This document shows positions 1 to 39,508 of a stretch of DNA of 64,000 nucleotides, piece by piece. The notes beneath the pieces were generated by a model. That model saw only the letters and a program-made list of their open reading frames with translations, did not search any database and was not told where the DNA came from. The stretch is from Ulva prolifera (lineage: Eukaryota > Chlorophyta > Ulvophyceae > Ulvales > Ulvaceae): assembly GCA_023078555.1 (NCBI GenBank), contig CM041204.1, forward strand, positions 3,936,430 through 4,000,429. The letters run 5' to 3'. The first letter of the stretch is position 1. Each line of letters opens with the position of its first letter. The translations under genes were made by a program, and so were the position numbers.

Positions 1-1901
1 GCTCGAGCTCGTCCTGCTGCACGTAGTGGTACCACATCGCGGGCAGGTACAGCACATCCCCCGCATACACTGTCACCTGCAGCCACACCTCCCACATCTG
101 GCACCCTTCTGCTGCAGTGGTGTCCCACAGGCAAGCGAAGAAGACAGTCTCGTGTGTGGAGCGGCACAGAGGAGAACTGCCTCCAAAGAAAGAAAGAAAG
201 AAAAGGGCCCGAAGGAGCAAAGCAGTGACACCGCTGTGTTGGAGCAGGGCGTCCCTGCAGACCTCGACTCAATAGCTCAGCTCAAATCTAGGCTACGTCA
301 GCTCAGAGGAGCCTGCAGGGCCTGCACCTACAGAGGCGGAGGCTCTTACACCGCGGCGCACACAGAACTGCAACAGCGAGGCGGGGCGAGCTGGCCTGCA
401 CTGTGTTGATGACGTTGTGACACACCTGCAGTGGCGGGGGACCTTGAAAGTAGCGAGGGAAGAGCCTCTGCTGCTCTCGCAGCCTCGCCCCGCCCGCCTG
501 GATGCCCTCGACGTCCACCGGGCACCACCGCACGCGGCTGTGCTGAGCTGCGAACGCGAAGGAGCCGTCCGGCAGCATCGTTTGCTGGTAGATGGGGCAG
601 GCCCGGAGGTGCATGTAGGGCAGGTGGCTGGGGGGTCGCAGGGTGAACGTTTTGCTGCCGGAGATGACCGCGTAGATGTTCTCGTAGTGGTCCTGCACAG
701 CCCAAGGAGTGCTATTGCACTGGTTCTACCCAGCTCCAGGAGCACCGCCGCCGTGGTCCTCGATGCGGCACTGTTTTGCATGGCATGCAAGGCCTGGGTG
801 ACACCGTGGTCCCGTTGATTCGGAGTTGCCAATGTCATCTTCAGGATACGGCTCACTGGGCTCAGATTTTCTTTACTTTACTGGCATAGCGGTCGTGGGC
901 AAGACACTGCTGTGGTTGGCCTGGACAGCCCACGGAACACCTCGTGGCCATGCTAACCGCAGGAGCTGTTGATATCCATGTGGATCAGGCTATGCAGGCT
1001 GTGAAGAGCCAGGCTCGTGCGTGCAAGGCAGCTGCAGCGCGCTGCAGATTCCACCCAGTGTTGGCAGGTTCTCGCAGGCGTCAGAGTGATTGCGCAGGTG
1101 GTGGTGCTACCATGATGGCTGAAGCGTGCACCAGATGAGAGTGTTGTCCACCCTCTGCTCAAACAGGCGGAACAGACCCAGAGCATGCATGCTGCGGTAT
1201 GGTACGGACGAGGCACACAGGGCCAGCTGCAAGAACCTGAGAAAAGCAGCAGTGCCGGTGGTGGAGAGCTCGCATCAGGTCCTTCATAGTGCAGCACGCA
1301 TATTGGGTCCTTGTCGAGTCGACGTGGTGGAACTTGTGAACATTTGAGATTGAGGGCACACCTTGTGGAATGTTGTTGTGGATCGCTTGTCACCTATCCA
1401 CAGGTTGACAGCATCTGGTGTAGCAGCTCCGAACGCCTCGAGCGCCCATGCAAAAGATGTGTCGATGTCCTTGGTCAAGCTCTCAAACTCTGCCAAGTTG
1501 TTGTTCTGGTACTGGACAGAAGGCACGGGTGATGCGTTGGCTTTGGACTGCCTGAAGACTGTGACAAACTCTTCCATGGTCATCTTTCTGTTGTCTGGAA
1601 GCAAGAATCTGCTGGACCCGTCGTCTTGCTGCTGAATGGCGTCCGCTTTGCCGTCGCACGTGAACGTGCAGGTGACCTGTGCATGCCCCATGCGCTCCTG
1701 TATGCGGTCCAGGTCCCAGGTCTGAGTTGCAGGCCAGTGTGACACTGCACCTCGAACAACACATGGCCTGTTCCGTGACACAAAATCCCTGTACCATGTG
1801 GCGCTGTCCGGGATGGTGTCCAGCTCGGCAATCGAGTTGTAGAATTCATAGTCGTGGATGTCTTGCCCTAGCTGCTCGATTGCAGCAAGAACTTCATCCA
1901 T
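1..1901 (-). CDS. JMJD7: JMJD7-like JmjC-domain hydroxylase (3' end outside window)
   Basis: JMJD7 is a 2-oxoglutarate/Fe(II) oxygenase known in animals as a lysyl hydroxylase acting on DRG GTPases. I read three exons: 1362-1901 (ATG at 1901), 426-692 and 1-76. Introns are phase 0 with GTGTG donors and TGCAG acceptors. Exon 1 encodes an N-terminal region rich in the family pattern (PCVVRGAVSHWPA, VNLWIGDKRSTTTFHK). The first junction joins HK to DHYENIYAV, which rebuilds the iron-binding HxD pair (H179, D181) exactly as in JMJD7. The last exon supplies AGDVLYLPAMWYHYVQQ, whose WYH histidine is the expected third iron ligand. The C-terminus continues beyond base 1. The catalytic triad is complete, so the enzyme looks functional. 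It diverges from KRI1, with 495 bp between the start codons. Confidence 0.88.
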
Positions 1902-2396
1902 CTGGCTCCCCCCGATGCAGCTTTTTCATCAGAGGTGCAGAGGCTAGTACGGGTGTGTCATCAGATTGAACACGAGGCATTATTGCAGGTGCTCTTGAGC
2001 ATCAGAGAGATCACAAGTTCAACCATACACACCCACTGCATCTTGTAGACGTAAGCTGGCGCAGAGTTCACGCAAACTGTACCGACAGCTCTCGGGAAGT
2101 GATCATGGCTTGTTTCCCCAAGTTTTGGTGCTGTTTAGAGTTGCGCGCGTGCGAGCGCCATCGCTGGACACCCAAGCCACCAAGTCGGGCATCTTGTCGG
2201 CCGCGCGATTGCACCCAGCTGTTGATCGACTGTGGCAAAAAACAGTATAAATGTGGCAGATAGTCACATACTGTCAATTGTTGCCACACGCGCGCTGCCC
2301 GATGCCCTGATTAACCAGGCAGGTCTGGAGGCCAATAGGCTATTCCGACGGCGGCCAGTCCCGCAGCCGACTAGGCCGCGAGCCGAGTCCTCCGCC
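1902..2396. promoter_or_regulatory. Divergent intergenic region between JMJD7 and KRI1
   Basis: These 495 bp separate the start codons of two genes transcribed away from each other, so promoters and 5' UTRs for both should lie here. A TATA-like box (TATAAAT, 2246-2252) sits about 145 bp upstream of the KRI1 ATG on its strand. No equally clear box was seen for JMJD7. The promoter role is inferred from the arrangement. Confidence 0.4.
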
Positions 2397-5113
2397 ATGA
2401 GCGCCTTGAAGTCTGAACTGTTTGATGAAGACTCTGAGCAGGAAGATCTCGATGCTGACCCATCGCTCCTGCGTGTGAACGAGGAATACGCCAAGCGCTT
2501 CGACGTAAGCTCTCTTCCTTGACTGCCTCTGATGTGTCCTGCGCATTTGATTCACACACACTTGATGTAAATGGTCTATTTTGCCTGCAGCATAACAAGA
2601 AGCGCGCAGAGCTACACCGCCTGCAAGAAAAGCATCCTGAGGTTGCGGCGCGCATCCAAGCCCGGGGCCTCGACGCCAGCGATGGGCACGAGTCCACTAC
2701 TTCTGAGGAAGAGGTGTGCTGCTGACCACTTGTTGTTCACCGTGTCACGAATTCGCAGGGTATATGATGATTCATCCGGATTCCCCTTCAGGAGCGTGTC
2801 AATGACCGATTATCCTATTCTGATGCCCTACGCGTGGCACCGATCCTTGCACATGCGTGAATTCAACGTTATCGATCGTCTACACGTGTCTCTGATGCAC
2901 CGATGGTCTGGTTTACATATTGCTTGGCTGACTGCAGGACGAGGGCCAGCTGAGCCCTGAGACGGAGCATGAATGGGCACAAGCTCTCCTCAAGATCCGC
3001 AAGAAAGACCCATCCATCTACGATGCCTCCACCACTCTGTTCAATGAGCCCAGCGCCGCCGCGTCAGATGATGATGGCGATGATGATCAAGAGCCAAAGG
3101 AACCAAAGAAGAAGTCCAAGAAGACGTTGCGTGACATTCTATACGACCAGGTATGCATCCACACCCAGTCTCCACTTCCATTCTGAGTTGTGTTCAAATT
3201 ATCAAACAGTACCCTTGTCCATGCTGCTAGCATCATGCCACCTGTCCACTGCATGAGCACCACCTGGTGTGGCTGTTACACCTGAAAGGTGCTGCCCGCC
3301 TTGCTTGCTTTGTCCTTGTAACAAACACCTGAACGGCTGTCACGTTGTCACTGACACCTGCATGCCGTGGCATCGCCTATCTCCGTGCATCCCGCATCTG
3401 TGCTCAGCCCTGTCGCCCGTCCTTCTCGTCATCATCGCTGCACATCCTGAGCCCACCAACGCATGCCTCATCCCACTCGGTATCTGCAGGCCGTTGCTGA
3501 AACAGAGGGACATGAAGACGATGCCGACACCGACATGGACCGCAAGAAGCGGCTACGCGCCGACAAAGCCGAGGCGCTCGCGTACGACCCCGAGCAGCGT
3601 GCCCTCCGCGACGCCCTCAAGTCCCGCTTGAACTCCGACGCGGCTGGTGACGCTGGCGTACAGGCAGGCGGCAGTGGCGAGGAGGACGACATGGGCGGCC
3701 TTACCGTCCGCCAGCGCGCCGCGCCCGACAATGCCACGGTATGTCCCACCCCGCATCACTGCAGGACACAAACCCCTGCCCTGTGTCCCGTATCACATGT
3801 TACAGCCTCAAAGCAGCAGCACACACCTGCATGCACCTTTTGTGCGTGTGTGTGTGTGTGTGTGTTCTGATAGGACTCGATGCAGGCATGCTCCTATCTT
3901 GGGCACATGCTGTGCTGTTTTTGTCGCAGCAATGCATGCTCGATCTCCATGTGCCAAGTCGGTGCATGTTAGCCTGTCGGTTCTCAACTCATGCCCGCAG
4001 GCCCCGCCAGGGTGAGCACGTGCGGCATGCGGTCATGCATGCAGCATGTTTACAGGCCGGCCGTGCGAGCAGGACAGGGCAGGCGAGGCGCCCCCCAGCA
4101 TCGCCGCAGCTGCCGACCTCGACACCTACTTCGCCTCGGCCGAAGCCACCCTGCCCGGCGGCAACGCCACCTTTCTGCGGGAGTACTTCCGGCGGCGGCT
4201 GTGGGAGGAGCCTGGTGATGACGGCGGCGAGAGTGCGGCCGCTGGCCTTGATGGAGGGCCTGCATTTGGGGACGGGGTGGGGGATGATGGTGCGGCGGGG
4301 CCTGAGGTGGAGGAGGATGAGGAGTTCTTGACGAGGGCGGACCAGTTTGAGCACAGATATAACTTCAGGTATGCTTGCTTGACATTGCGGGGGCTTGCAT
4401 GCGTGGTTTCAAGATGTGGGTGTGCATCGAAGTTGGGCAAATGGCTGCTTTGTGTCCTCGACTGCATGTCACTTCGTGGTGGCAACGTGTGTACGCAAGG
4501 CGTGCCGCCTTCTGCCGATATACCAGAGGTTGTAACTAGTCCTGAGTGGTTGCGGATGTGTGCAGGTCTGAGGAGCCCGGTGGTACTGAGATCCGGTCGT
4601 ACCCACGGCAGATCGAGGGCCTGGCGCGGCAGGAGGAGAGCCGTCGCAAGCGGCAGCGCGAGGCGAAGCGCGCCCGGCAGGACGAGCGCGAACAGCAGCG
4701 TGCCGCCGAGGTGAAGCAGCTCAAGAACCTCAAGAAGCAGGAGGTCGGCGACGCGTGCGGCACCCTCTTGCGCTGTATTGCCAGTCAACCTGTTTGCCAG
4801 TCAAACGCCCTGATGGTTTCAGAGCCACGATCCTTGTGGCACGGCTGTGCCATGTCTGGGCTCTTGTGTTGTCTGGGTCGGTGTATGTTGCTGCTGTCTG
4901 ACTGGTGACTGCTGTCCGTTGGCATGCTCGCCCTGCTGGCAGATTTGGTGGCGGTGTACTTGGTTGTTTGCGGGCTCTGTTCAAAGCCTGAGAGGAGGAG
5001 TGCTGGATGATGACCAAAATCAATCTTAGGACACCTTCAGAAGCGGGCCTGCCAGCCCAACGCTCATGAGACTTATCGTTATCTCCTGACAGCACTCGGT
5101 GTCCTCAGCCCTG

Positions 5114-5144
<31 letters not shown>

Positions 5145-7236
5145 TTGGGGTGTCCATTCTTGCACGCGGCCGATGATGCTCAAACAAACTTTCGTTCTTC
5201 CGACCAGCTGCAAAGCTCTGTGGATACAAGTTTGGAGACCTGATCTGAAGGCCTGTGTGCACGCCCTCCCACTGCTCAGTACACTACGTCTGCTCAAAGT
5301 TCCTGCTGCTGATTGCTTGACAGCTCCTGTGTCTGTATGCAGGATATCCCAGCTCGCGTCGGTGTCTGGCAAGGGCGCCCCAAGCAAGAGCCTGCTTAAG
5401 CAGCTGATGGACACCGACTTTGACCCGGATGCATGGGACAAGCACATGGCCAGTGCCTTCGGTGATGACTACTACGCCGAGGCAGAGCCCGAGATGGATG
5501 TTGTTGGCGCCGCTGATGATGCGATGCGGGAAGCCCATCGGTGGCAGGAGACCGCCGCTGCCGCCCGGGACGGCGAGGGAAGCGACAGCGGCGAAGAGGA
5601 CTCGAGTGATGATGACGGGGAGCCAGGCAAGGCCACGGGGCAGACGTTTGATGCTGTGCACAAGAGGCTCACTGGGAAGGAGGCGGAGCTGCTGCCGGAG
5701 ACGGACTATGCGGACCCGGCGAAGCAGGGTAGGAGTCGAGATGATGGCAGTGCGGGCTCTGGGAGTGAGGATGATGAGGAGGGTGAGAAGGTTGAGAAGC
5801 TGGCTGCGACGAGGAACAAGGTGTGCAGCGGCCGCCTGTTCTGGCTCCTTGTTTTTTTTAAGATTCTTCTGGAGCGTGAATTTTATGCAGAGCAACTTTG
5901 CCTTGGTGATGTAGCGTCAGCCATGACCATCCCCATACTTAAGTTGCTAACAGCACTGGTTAGCTTCCACTGTGACCCTTGCACCCCATCGAGGAGCCAC
6001 TACTAAGGGCAGCCTACATCTCAGAACCCCTGCAGGGTTCCTGACCCTACACTACATGACAGGATTCCACACATGCAGCAGAACCAGTCCATTACATGCG
6101 TAATTGTCCATTACATGCGTAATTGTTCCTATTGTTCCGTCCTTCAAACCCATGACGCCTGCGATACCACAGGCGGTTTTCGTGGCGGCCGCCGTGATCT
6201 GTGTCTGCACATACGCCGTGAACTGTGCTCGACCCATCCCCTGACTAGCCTCCCCTGTGTCCAGATCCACACGCTGCTGCAAGAGTACTACCGGCTCGAC
6301 CACGAGGACGAGGTCGGCGGAGTGCGCACGCGCTTCCGCTACCGCGCCGTCGAGCCCATCAACGACGGCCTCACCACCGACCAGATCCTCGCGCTGCCTG
6401 ACCAGGACCTCAACGCCATTGTTGGCCTCCGCAAGCTTGCACCATACAACCAGGACACCCACCGCATCCGCCCGAACTACAAGGCTTTGTCGGAGGCGCG
6501 CGAGAAGCTCGTTGCGCAGGGGCTGATTGTGCCAAAGGGGGGCCGCGATGGGGGAGACAGGCGTGGCGGGAAGAAAGGGAAGCATGGGCAGAAGGGGGAT
6601 GTTGCCAAGGGGAAGTATAAGCTCGGGAGTGCTGCGGCTGGGGGGGAGGGGAAGGCGGGTGTTGGGATACAGAAGGGGGGTGTGGTGAAGAAGTTCGTGG
6701 TGAAGGCGAAAGCATCGTCGAAGGAAAAGGGGGATGGCGATGCGGCAGGGAAGGCTGGGAAAAGACCAGGGCCGCGGCTTCGGAGAGCCCTGAAGGAGGC
6801 GGCAGCTGCTGCAGCGGGAGGGGGGGAGGCGACGGAGGACGGTGGCCTGAAGGCTGCCGGGGAGCATCGATCAGCTGGAGAAGATGTGGCGGACAAGGGC
6901 AAGAAGAAGAAGTCGGGAAGTGCCCGAGATCATCGTAAAGCCCTGAAGGAGATGAATGCAGATGAAAAGAAGGCGGCCCGGCTCGCATCGTATGCACCTG
7001 TAGCGCCCAGTGCTGCTGGCGGCCCTGTCCGACACGCATCTGGTGGACCATCTGGAGGGATGAAGCAGCAGAAGGTCAAAGCCTCTGGTGGTGGCGGAGG
7101 TGGCACAGGGGAAGGTGGGCAGGATGGTGCTGGGGATGGGGAGTTTGCAGGCATGTCCAAGGCTGCAAAGAAGAACCTCAAGCGGAAGCTTAAGAAGAGG
7201 CAGTCTGGTGAGAAGGCCGGGGCCGAAGCTGCGTGA
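2397..7236 (+). CDS. KRI1: KRI1 homologue, ribosome biogenesis factor
   Basis: Yeast Kri1 is a nucleolar protein that works with Krr1 in 40S subunit assembly. Exons: 2397-2504, 2591-2713, 2938-3150, 3490-3738, about 4045-4368, 4566-4754, 5343-5820 and 6265-7236, roughly 890 residues. Family marks appear in order: acidic N-terminus with LRVNEEYAKRFD; FLTRADQFEHRYNFR then EEPG..IRSYPRQ; a basic coiled segment ending KNLKKQE; DTDFDPDAWDKHMASAFGDDYY; and the C-terminal Kri1 domain (LLQEYYRLDHEDEV, FRYRAVEPINDGL) followed by a lysine/glycine-rich tail. The ATG at 2397 follows GCC and begins MSALKSELFDEDSE; an upstream in-frame ATG at 2232 is less likely. Between exons 4 and 5 an 11-nt mini-exon (4001-4011) would restore phase, but this is uncertain. 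Confidence 0.9.
3846..3866 (+). repeat. (GT)n microsatellite in a KRI1 intron
   Basis: About ten GT units lie in the intron after exon 4 of KRI1. This is a simple repeat with no sign of function. Confidence 0.9.
5119..5144 (+). repeat. (TG)n microsatellite in a KRI1 intron
   Basis: About thirteen TG units lie in the intron before the exon at 5343. It is a second TG array in the same gene. Confidence 0.9.
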
Positions 7237-27749: not shown

Positions 27750-28017
27750 CAATGAGGGGGTTGTCAGTCTCGCGATCACTGAATATTAGTGAACTTGCGA
27801 GCTAGTTCGGTGTTGGTTGCTTGGCTCACGTAGGCGTCTGATGAGGCCCTTTGTCAAGGCCGAAACATGTTATGCCGGTCCGTGATGTTCATGTAATATA
27901 GCATCAACCAGTACTAGTGAACTTTCTACCTCAGATGAGATTCGGTTTCGGTGTTTGTTTTCTCCCGTTCACTCTTTTGTAACACTTTCTACCTCAGATA
28001 GTACAATGAGGGGGTTG
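27750..28017 (+). repeat. Short unit bounded by 14-bp direct repeats and carrying a hammerhead motif
   Basis: The word CAATGAGGGGGTTG occurs at 27750-27763 and again at 28004-28017, 254 bp apart. The hammerhead motif lies between. The motif TTCTACCTCAGAT also repeats inside the unit (about 27925 and 27988). The arrangement fits either a ~240-bp insertion with a 14-bp target duplication or one period of a former tandem array. There is no coding sequence. Confidence 0.6.
27826..27885 (+). ncRNA. Type I hammerhead ribozyme motif
   Basis: All core elements occur in order: CUGAUGA (27838-27844), a stem II hairpin from GGCCCUUUGUCAAGGCC (27845-27861), GAAA (27862-27865), then a very short stem III (AC, loop AU, GU) ending in the cleavage triplet GUU at 27869-27871. 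Stem I is formed by GGCGU (27833-27837) with AUGCC (27872-27876). Beyond a small internal loop it continues with UCACG (27826-27830) and CGUGA (27881-27885). Hammerheads with minimal stem III are known from Penelope-like elements and retrozymes, where they probably act as dimers. Self-cleavage here is inferred from structure only. Confidence 0.75.
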
Positions 28018-35743: not shown

Positions 35744-36521
35744 TTGCCGAGACCGGCTGCCGGGGTCGACAATAACACGCCAGAGATTGGCACTGCTGCC
35801 TTTAGCTGGGGCGGCAGTCGAGGCGGCGCTGCAGTAGCTGCCTGGCAGTGCAATGATGTGAACGCTTGGATACTGTCTGTTGAACTGCAGACGTGGTCAC
35901 AGGCTACTTTGATCCTTCTTTCGGTTTCTGAATCTGAATCTCCATGTTGATGATACGGGCAGATGTTCGATGCTGCTGCTGGTTTTGGCCTTCCGCCGGT
36001 CTTTGGAATCTTTTCTGCATGAATTCATCACATCGTTTTACTGATGTGTCAAAGTCCGATGTAACGAATTGATCATTGTGTATGCCCTCCGTTGCAAGCT
36101 GACCAACTGTGCGGGCACGCCTGACGTATGAGTTCTGTGGGACCATGTTGGTACTCTGATCAGCAGCGGCTGGCCACACTGATAAGCAGCTGTCCGTGTA
36201 GCACACTGATCTGCAGCTGGCCTTATCGCTCCTAAGCAGGGACCTTGACAGTATGAAAAAAGCCTGGCATGAGGGCCACATCCTTTTGTACTGGGCTTGT
36301 ACGCTGGCCGCAATGTCTGCTTTTATGCTGGCGGACGCTGTGTTTCTGAGTCTGTGAGATTCATGACTGGTTGGAAAACGTCCACATCTTGGTAAGCAAG
36401 TGCTTGGACTATTACACCTCAAGAGGTATTAACCACATGATCCGTAAAAGGAGATATGAGCCACATGATCCGTGACAGGAGATATAAACCACCTAATACA
36501 CGAACGGGGCGAAAATGAATG
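35744..36521. other. Gap: one unassigned minus-strand open frame
   Basis: A minus-strand frame from 36422 to 35904 stays open for 172 codons (internal Met at the motif MVPQNSYVRRARTVGQL). It lacks an ATG at its head and matches no family recalled. It may be an exon or chance. Confidence 0.2.
36433..36488 (+). repeat. 28-bp tandem repeat next to the tRNA
   Basis: CCACATGATCCGT recurs at 36433 and 36461, each followed by a GGAGATAT-containing stretch. It is just downstream of the tRNA-Cys 3' end. Confidence 0.75.
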
Positions 36522-36593
36522 AGATACGAGACAGAGTTGAACTGCCGACCTGCTGAGCTGCAATCAGCCGCTCTACCACTGAGCTATCGCACC
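36522..36593 (-). tRNA. tRNA-Cys (anticodon GCA)
   Basis: The reverse strand folds as a complete 72-nt cloverleaf. The acceptor GGTGCGA pairs with TCGTATC; the D stem is GCTC/GAGC; the anticodon stem GCTGA/TCAGC closes the loop TTGCAGC with anticodon GCA; the T stem is GGCAG/CTGTC around TTCAACT. The discriminator base is T, the usual identity element for tRNA-Cys. There is no intron, and CCA is not encoded. A TTTT run (gene strand, at about 36515-36512) follows within 10 bases and should end Pol III transcription. Confidence 0.95.
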
Positions 36594-39508
36594 GTGTTGA
36601 TGTACGATCAGCGAATCATACTTTATATAATTTTGGTAATGTCCACTTGCAGCTTTGGTCGCTGCAGTGCTAGCATTTACCTGTGCCCTGCAACGCACCT
36701 CGAACTGCCAGACAGCATAGCGTAGACCTGACATGGTAACAGATGCACATGCGGACCTCTGTTACACTGTTTGCAAACAAAAGCTGCCCCATTGTACTAG
36801 TGATGCCTGCGCACATTGTCTTTCAACACCTCTGCTGCCAACAGAAACAGCGAGACTGGTATAAGCCTGGTCGGGGGCGTGTCCAGCGTGCATGGTTGCT
36901 GGTCAAACAGATTGCAAACTGTGATGGTTCATGTAATGTCTTCCTCTTTGTGTTGCTGTCTTTGCTTCACGGGTGCTTCGATGTAGAGCTACCCTTGATC
37001 TCCGATCACATCGCTACTGTACTCTAGGTCACATGCACAGTGGCCGATACGAAGACTGCGACGCCTTCACAAAGTATGGCAATGACTACCGATTCAAAGC
37101 TGGTAGTAATGGGGGCACATAGCCTACAGTATACATGTACAGAGTGTTCAACTCCAGATACTTCAAACCTGATACACAAACCACAGAGCTTCCAGTACTC
37201 ATGCGCACTCCTGGTAAGCAAACACAATACGATTTCACACTGCCCTTGCTTGGTTTGAATTGGACAGCATGTGCCAATCGGCAGTGGCAGGCCACCAGAC
37301 CGTGACTGGTAGCGATGGCTGTGGTGCCACAGGGCAGGCCGGAACAATATGAGTAGAGACATTTAGAAGCTATGTTGTAGCGATTTCCGTTAGGTTGGGG
37401 TGTGCAGAGCAAGCACGCGATGTTAACCTCGCTGTGTGTCGCAGGCACTGCAAGGCTACTGCTGTCGCGTAGCAACGAGAGCATGCTACAATAAGATCAG
37501 GCACCACGAAGATTCAAATGGCAAGCTGTTGCTGTAGCTACAGTGAAATCGGATTGCTGATGCCCGGCTGGCAAAATCATACCTGGTGTGAGCATGTCCC
37601 GCCAGCTGTCTCCGCAAACTTTGCTGACAGCCGTCTTCTGCGAATACAACAAGCACAGGCGTCGACTTGTACAAATACAAATGCTCAGTATATTCCTGGC
37701 TTCAGGACGGACGGCCAGCTGTGCCCGCGACTACGCAGCTGCTTCGGTAAGCCTAACAACATCTCTCCCTTGCATTTGAATCGCATAATACACTTTTGAT
37801 CGTCATAATTAGATCAAACACATCTCAGATGTAGTATTCTGCGTGCTTTTTAGTGTTACGTTGCACATACGTGCTGTGCTACCTCTGGCTGCGGAGCCAG
37901 TTATGTGTGCCTGCACGGCTTGGCGCCTCAAGCTGCAGCCACGTGGCGTCTGTGAGCCCCCGTCGCCGCAACATATTCTCAACTTTCACGCTTATTGTGT
38001 TTTCGACTGCAGCTATAAGAGTCATGCGGTGATGTCCACTTCGTTGGCGCATTATGGTTTCGCCTTTTACTAAACCATACCGGGATTGTGCATCGTAACA
38101 CCGTCTCTACCATTTTTTGGGAGCGCTTCTGCGCTACTATTCCAAGCATTTCATGTCAAGTTGCCCTGCTGTCACCATCATTTCACTTCAGCACGAGTTT
38201 GTCACTGCACGCCCACGGGACGCTTGAGCTCATCAGATTGGGTAGACTGATCCTATTACATACGACAGCTTTGTTACATCTTCTGCCATTTGTGGTTTTT
38301 TCCACACGACAATTCTAAGTTCGCAGGTGTTGTGTTTCAACAACAGCACCACATGTCGATTACTATACTGCCTCGGCGTGTGTACATTATAATTACTTAC
38401 ACTGATGCTGAGCGCCGAGTTGGTTTGTCTTGGCCTGGATGAGCCTCCTCGATGTGGGGGGATGCTGACCCTGCATGTGTCCTTCACCGACTGCAGGACT
38501 CAAGGGGGACGGGATGATAAGTTCTCTTGATTGTACCCGGGGTAAGCGAGTCCTGTCGAGACTGGTCGCTGAAAGTGGGCTGGCAGATGAGCTGGTCTGC
38601 AGTTGTGGGCAGGTGGTGAGATGGCCACAGCCCGCCACACGTACTACCATCGATATACCCCTCGGATTTGACCAAGTACATCGGAAGTCCTGTCTTGGAA
38701 AATCGGCGCTACAGGAACCTGCCTCAGAGCCCCACCCCTCCCCACACACAATTACCTTGCAACATCCTCACTGCCACACTGGTCTTTGTCTCGTTCCTGC
38801 ACAGCCGCCCGGCAGAGCATCAGCGCTGGCCCTTTAACGGCCACAGCTCAACGGCCACTGCATGCCGGGCAGAGCTGACAGCCGGAGGTGGAGGCCACTA
38901 CTGAGCTCAGTTCGCTCAGAGGGGTGGCGCGTTGCTCGGGCCAGCGTCCACTGATGTTCCCGCAAAGCAACACAGTGTGCTAGCTGGCTGCGTTCTTATG
39001 TTCACGCCGCTATCTGCAGCTCATGCAATGCCCAGTGTTCAGCGTACCGATTCACCGCGATTTTAGGCAGTCATCAGGATGTGGGTGTATGCAAGTATGC
39101 GTAGACTGCGCACCACCTAGAACGCAAAGGTGCTATGGCTAGATAGGTCCTTGCGAGCGCGAGGGCACATACTGGAAGCGTCGGGTGTCTACAGGCTCAT
39201 CGTGATCGCCGAGAGCTATTGCACTCTGATCAGCGACATTCCTCAGCGCCTGCAGTATGTCATGTGCCGACTTGAGCGTACGCAACACAATGCGCTCCGG
39301 TTGCTGTAGTGAGCGAACTGTTCTCGTGCGTATCGTTCAAGTTCCCCCAAGAATGAAGCCTTTGGCCGTTCTCGAATCAATCGGTATTGTGCGTGTCATG
39401 ATGAGCGTACGTCCAAGTACAAGCTGTAGCACATACATTTGTGTATGAAGGTATTGAGATGCTGCCGCTCATATTTCAGGCTGCCCTTGCTTAGCGCACA
39501 GATACTCA
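36594..39508. other. Gap: no convincing gene
   Basis: This stretch is mixed and moderately AT-rich. A frame at 38475-38837 on the plus strand and one at 38393-38749 on the minus strand overlap, and neither has recognisable motifs. It may contain promoter and 5' UTR of the polycystin-like gene near its right end. Confidence 0.3.

Follow-up and report, generated by a model that had tools for sequence, protein, structure and literature searches.

A candidate minimal type I hammerhead ribozyme in the 3′ untranslated region of a probable Penelope-like element of Ulva prolifera

A 240-nt insertion carrying a type I hammerhead motif was found in a window of 64,000 nucleotides of Ulva prolifera DNA (the whole stretch analysed; contig CM041204.1, positions 3,936,430 to 4,000,429). 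We consider it likely that this insertion is a 5′-truncated Penelope-like element (PLE) of the Chlamys type, with an N-terminal GIY-YIG nuclease, and that the element carries a minimal type I hammerhead in its 3′ untranslated region (3′ UTR). The features of the site, in window coordinates, are as follows.

27750..27763, left target-site duplication, 14 bp, same sequence as 28004-28017
27764..28003, + strand, 5′-truncated 240-nt copy of the 3′ end of a PLE-like element (aligned to other copies, with the 14-bp repeats as bounds)
27826..27885, + strand, type I hammerhead ribozyme motif (sequence and descriptor match)
27826..27830, + strand, 5′ strand of outer stem I, TCACG, pairing with CGTGA at 27881-27885 (sequence and pair counts)
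27833..27837, + strand, 5′ strand of inner stem I, GGCGT, pairing with ATGCC at 27872-27876 (two-sided changes in relatives)
27838..27844, + strand, CUGAUGA core, CTGATGA (sequence)
27845..27861, + strand, stem II, GGCC/GGCC (27845-27848 with 27858-27861) and its 9-nt loop (sequence)
27862..27865, + strand, GAAA core, G12 to A15.1 (sequence)
27865-27866 with 27869-27870, + strand, stem III, AC/GT (sequence)
27865..27870, + strand, palindromic ACAUGU, 2-bp stem III within one molecule and possibly 6 bp between two
27871..27872, + strand, predicted cut between U17 (27871) and A1.1 (27872), from the hammerhead fold
27872..28003, + strand, tail downstream of the predicted cut, 132 nt
28004..28017, right target-site duplication, 14 bp

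The hammerhead motif in the window

All the stems, both cores and the cut between 27871 and 27872 can be read directly in the sequence where the original prediction had placed them, and the motif holds CUGANGA and GAAA, U16.1-H17, three stems and an open stem I. By direct reading, stem III consists of 2 bp only, closed by a 2-base loop, and the duplex of two ACAUGU hexamers was computed at -4.6 kcal/mol. A descriptor written after the site had been seen required CUGANGA, a stem II of 4 bp or more, GAA, A15.1-U16.1 together with a stem III of 2 bp or more, H17, and a stem I of 5 bp or more. With both strands of the 64-kb window searched, it matched a single site, the motif at 27826-27885, and it matched nothing in 200 dinucleotide shuffles. 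Chance resemblance, for which a score under the Rfam threshold may be cited, is hardly credible in the face of 200 shuffles without a match and of a sister lineage, L077, in which the stems are re-paired.

The covariance-model check proposed with the original prediction, for both window and genome, came out negative. At the gathering threshold Rfam gave no hammerhead anywhere in the window, and at a loose threshold RF00008 scored the motif at 16.5 bits (E 0.71) against a gathering score of 48.5; in the genome-wide search with RF00163 and RF00008 there were 0 matches among the best 73 of 8343 and the best 68 of 12879 first-look candidates. We do not regard the gathering score as defining for hammerheads with a minimal stem III. 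Upon free folding, a 72-nt stretch around the motif was of ordinary stability (z -0.40), and its MFE structure differs from the hammerhead fold, whose free energy is 2.3 kcal/mol higher; the MFE structure of the bare 61-mer includes stems I and II.

The tail of the window copy is longer than the 59 or 63 nt of the usual copies, one reason being that its final 16-nt block occurs twice (27921-27936 and 27984-27999, with 47 other nucleotides between). The motif looks like a genuine self-cleaving RNA, situated close to the end of an old and truncated PLE copy.

The genomic family and its source element

The source genome comprises 88.9 Mb in 44 contigs, and 38 chlorophyll a/b-binding matches within it agree with the alga that had been proposed as the host. 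The DNA around the motif, over window positions 27763-27934, matches at least 40 places in this genome (the best 40 of 1301 first-look candidates scored). A genome-wide search for the core pattern returned 84 rows, corresponding to 78 distinct loci, of which 73 were judged to be family-like, and the reversed control gave 12 rows; this census was taken by sequence patterns, which select for the core. The further genomic copies that the original prediction proposed to look for are at hand as these 73 loci; in the loci read, none lay in tandem.

After alignment of 49 loci, the copies were found to vary in their upstream reach and to have the 3′ end in common, the 5′ ends lying at positions 1 to 4307 of the element. 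Flanking repeats of at least 8 nt were detected in 24 of 44 rows, compared with 6.4% of mismatched flank pairs, some of the rows representing one place twice (for example, L004 and L040, or L008 and L043). Two forms of the 3′ end, CTCAGTA and CTCAGTTAGTA, differ by 4 nt in length, possibly representing two source variants or two starts of reverse transcription.

The two longest copies, L074 and L075, begin at the same first base and span about 4.46 kb. A proline-rich ORF1 leads into ORF2 through an ATGA stop-start overlap (seen in L041, near 5526, and in L074), and the element carries an open reading frame of 1022 codons with a GIY-YIG domain at residues 118-200 (Pfam PF01541, E 3.8e-8), a CSC motif near the middle of ORF2, and reverse transcriptase (RT) motifs in the C-terminal part, beyond about residue 650 (FDVKNMF, RGAAMGGYMSP and YVDD). 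Three of the 52 matched rows are open across the whole protein query. With regard to an RT of the PLE/telomerase group, the RVT_1 match is weak (E 0.0064, below the Pfam cut-off), as is the match to group II RT (E 0.0012, below its own cut-off); a PDB sequence search gave no match, and AlphaFold gave no confident fold for the RT part (pLDDT 31.9). The ribozyme is located in the 3′ UTR; the distance from the predicted cut to the 3′ end is 63 nt, and 59 nt in the copies ending with CTCAGTA. The loci read showed neither pLTRs nor an arrangement in tandem, and the long copy L074 carries partial inverted tails at both ends (1764-1836 and 6252-6286).

The suggestion that the motif is a trace of a Penelope-like element is supported: the genomic copies place it at the 3′ terminus of an element that has GIY-YIG and RT motifs, 5′ truncation and target duplications. 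The accompanying statement that no protein gene explains the conservation does not hold as worded, since the repetition in the genome is explained by a protein-coding retroelement, even though the motif itself is non-coding. The permuted order of the domains, N-terminal nuclease followed by RT, looks like the Chlamys type: the Chlamys clade (Craig 2021) reportedly combines an N-terminal GIY-YIG, a C-terminal RT, a CxC motif between them and an algal host. The element here shares the host, the N-terminal nuclease, the C-terminal RT motifs and, as CSC, the CxC motif.

Retrozymes, named as the alternative source in the original prediction, are likewise retroelements with a hammerhead; they are described as non-autonomous, with paired ribozymes and circular RNA (PMC7761336), none of which was seen here. 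A retrozyme or hammerhead satellite would be a small non-coding RNA that replicates as a circle and is inserted by another element, and the many short copies, together with three of eight ribozyme-less tails whose first base directly follows the predicted cut (see below), would agree with such an origin. We nevertheless rejected it as very improbable: the 5′ ends are spread over positions 1 to 4307 along a coding element with common 3′ ends, LTRs did not show up, and L018 is the one locus of 49 to hold two ribozymes, 3,370 bp apart and with the same flanks. This locus (G000:C9:5195866-5202535), carrying two truncated copies, is probably a segmental duplication.

Conservation among copies and between lineages

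Among the 40 best copies, 7 of 440 core positions and 50 of 3574 flank positions were changed; in these sequences the copies as such show no selection on the core, as is expected for dead insertions. Between lineages the ribozyme appears to be retained, as judged from one pair of sequences, L041 and its sister lineage L077, the latter found via its protein and not via the motif. Between the two, the core is unchanged (0 of 11 positions), the stems differ at 4 of 18 positions and the remainder of the ribozyme at 6 of 31, compared with 108 of 335 positions (32%) in the rest of the 3′ UTR; for the whole ribozyme (10/60) against the remaining 3′ UTR, p = 0.014. Inner stem I of L077 keeps all its pairs, with one G-C to A-U exchange and one extra pair outward, and outer stem I has lost one pair.

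The A-U exchange is common to 11 of 37 rows, these being L077 and ten others selected by the core pattern. Changes on both sides of a pair were detected at pairs 3 and 4 of inner stem I and at pair 3 of stem II; in L081 a stem II pair is swapped (stem II of this row was counted by anchor, a gap in loop II displacing it in alignment A3), and in L082 one stem I pair is swapped, another is broken and stem II is longer. Because rows L081-L094 were chosen by a core pattern that also demanded A, C or T at H17, only stem I counts as evidence in these rows. For the 37 distinct rows, pairing was retained in 91.0% of cells, compared with 26.8-43.5% in slid controls, and the observed number of two-sided cells was reached by 1 of 500 shuffles, that of two-sided pairs by 272 of 500; the same shuffle test on the first 14 rows gave no signal. 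We thus regard the support from covariation as mixed, with few events. In another diverged lineage, L079, the core is broken, as it is in several single copies.

These data bear on a second reading of the conservation, in which the fold is retained as a binding site of the element protein, for 3′ UTR recognition in target-primed reverse transcription, with the core as a non-cleaving relic. A binding site would suit the position of the motif, 59 or 63 nt away from where reverse transcription begins, and its smaller share of changed positions compared with the rest of the 3′ UTR, as well as the normal insertion of ribozyme-dead RNA reported for the lizard PLE PAc (PMC11167929). The identity of the non-helical core positions between lineages speaks against it. 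So does H17, which is U, C or A and never G in 30 distinct strings, in agreement with the cleavage rule, a weak argument given that most strings are close copies. On balance, we hold a mere binding site to be possible but rather unlikely, and a ribozyme within the 3′ UTR of a truncated PLE to be the better account of the motif.

Insertion template, tails and possible role

In order to identify the template of insertion, we used 23 places (30 loci) that were found via the protein regardless of the motif, and left out the 40 DNA-matched places, for which the query itself spans the ribozyme and the tail. Of the 23 places, 21 continue beyond the predicted cut, and at the cut itself no place ends; 20 attain the 3′ end (one of them, C5:7754, as seen in L080), and L069 continues for 13 nt beyond the cut, up to the edge of the locus. 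The two remaining places end well upstream of the cut, L055 at 4221 and the single place represented by L059, L062 and L064 at 4128. Since the inserted copies cross both ribozyme and tail, uncut RNA is the usual insertion template.

We also examined hammerhead 3′ ends without a tail match at the usual distance, 29 in total, with C at H17 in 15, A in 1 and U in 13. Among the 13 ends with U17, four belong to the scrambled locus L095 and one, in L096, is followed by a 16-nt insert; the other eight to nine rows (L031, L050, L067, L069 and L108-L112) extend beyond the cut, their tails being diverged or interrupted. In locus L095 (G000:C3:1370060-1370330), a palindromic, scrambled array contains the 3′ halves of five hammerheads and resembles the product of repeated template switching.

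Conversely, 32 of 88 tails lacked an exact ribozyme 3′ end upstream, 11 of them at places already read or matched. When the remaining 21 were read (37-73 nt upstream), 10 proved to follow a mutated or partial ribozyme, 8 had no ribozyme and 3 were ambiguous (L114, L115 and L122). Of the 8 ribozyme-less tails, three begin directly after the predicted cut (+1) and the other 5 within nine bases of it, for a tail pattern that detects no start beyond about +4. The +1 starts hint at cutting in the cell. Of these three, L097 and L106 have no target duplication, L100 has three extra bases between the duplication and the tail, and CATG, which is abundant in the genome and common to the element and its targets, blurs the tail junctions.

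The same three tails could also be taken as a sign that the ribozyme processes tandem or read-through transcripts, the cut setting the 5′ end of a downstream unit. The tandem PLEs of animals, with hammerheads in their pLTRs (PMC11167929, PMC7761336), would suit this reading. The loci read contain no tandem units, and L074 and L075, which reach the 5′ end of the element, have no direct tail copy at the start; we therefore think processing of this kind unlikely here. For the single 5′-truncated PLE copies favored above, a different course may be envisaged. Self-cleavage of the element RNA would take place at U17, with 59 or 63 nt left up to the point at which reverse transcription begins. It would probably work best when the palindromic stem III joins two ribozymes, or with the help of the element protein, as reported for PAc. 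Such a cut would split the coding RNA from the tail at which reverse transcription starts, the more so at a high level of RNA, and the likeliest role of the ribozyme would be RNA processing in competition with insertion, not a required step of insertion.

PAc is among the closest comparisons. Its cut is located at ORF +26 and its start of reverse transcription at +111 to +118, 85-92 nt on, compared with 59 or 63 nt here; its cleavage requires the protein, and ribozyme mutants still insert (PMC11167929). Because this arrangement is alike in spite of a different gene order, a link between the ribozyme and the site where reverse transcription begins is suggested. According to PMC7761336 and PMC6155905, minimal type I hammerheads occur in PLEs and dimers are reported for newt and PLE hammerheads, and the former source calls the role of the hammerhead in PLEs a mystery. 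The animal PLE hammerheads, including that of PAc, are like the present one of type I, with a very short stem III, and reside in a retroelement with GIY-YIG and RT. In contrast, their nuclease is C-terminal and here N-terminal, their ribozyme lies at the pLTR-ORF junction and here in the 3′ UTR of single copies, and the two-part stem I with an internal loop is unlike theirs. It is from Cervera and de la Pena 2014 and Lunse 2017 that minimal type I hammerheads are said to be known in animal PLEs.

The PLEs of Craig 2021 with an N-terminal nuclease (EN+, Chlamys clade) are said to be without canonical hammerhead motifs, in which respect the element here differs from the clade. If this is indeed what has been reported, the hammerhead here is a new variant. 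Our literature search of open-licence papers, made mostly by title, listed no paper whose title links a hammerhead to a Chlamys element or to a green algal PLE; a Chlamys group is used for the PLEs of a brown alga in PMC12477816. A hammerhead in the permuted, N-terminal-nuclease branch, in an alga, would widen the association of hammerheads with PLEs and suggest its old age, and would offer a system of fixed geometry, with ribozyme, 59 or 63 nt, and start of reverse transcription. As a speculative extension, to which we give little weight at present, PLEs with an N-terminal nuclease may keep an active hammerhead just upstream of the start of reverse transcription, so that the ribozyme would predate the split into the two PLE domain orders and go with the start site, not with the ORF; the palindromic stem III would then make cleavage dependent on RNA concentration, by which the element would limit its own copy number, and the 5′-OH tails set free would sometimes be inserted themselves, as the three +1 starts might show.

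Elsewhere in the window we noted a U5 spliceosomal RNA gene at 38025-38137 (+), a tRNA-Cys (GCA) gene at 36521-36593 (-) and, at 5119-7233 (+), two frames that contain Kri1 and Kri1_C domains and are likely exons of a KRI1 gene.
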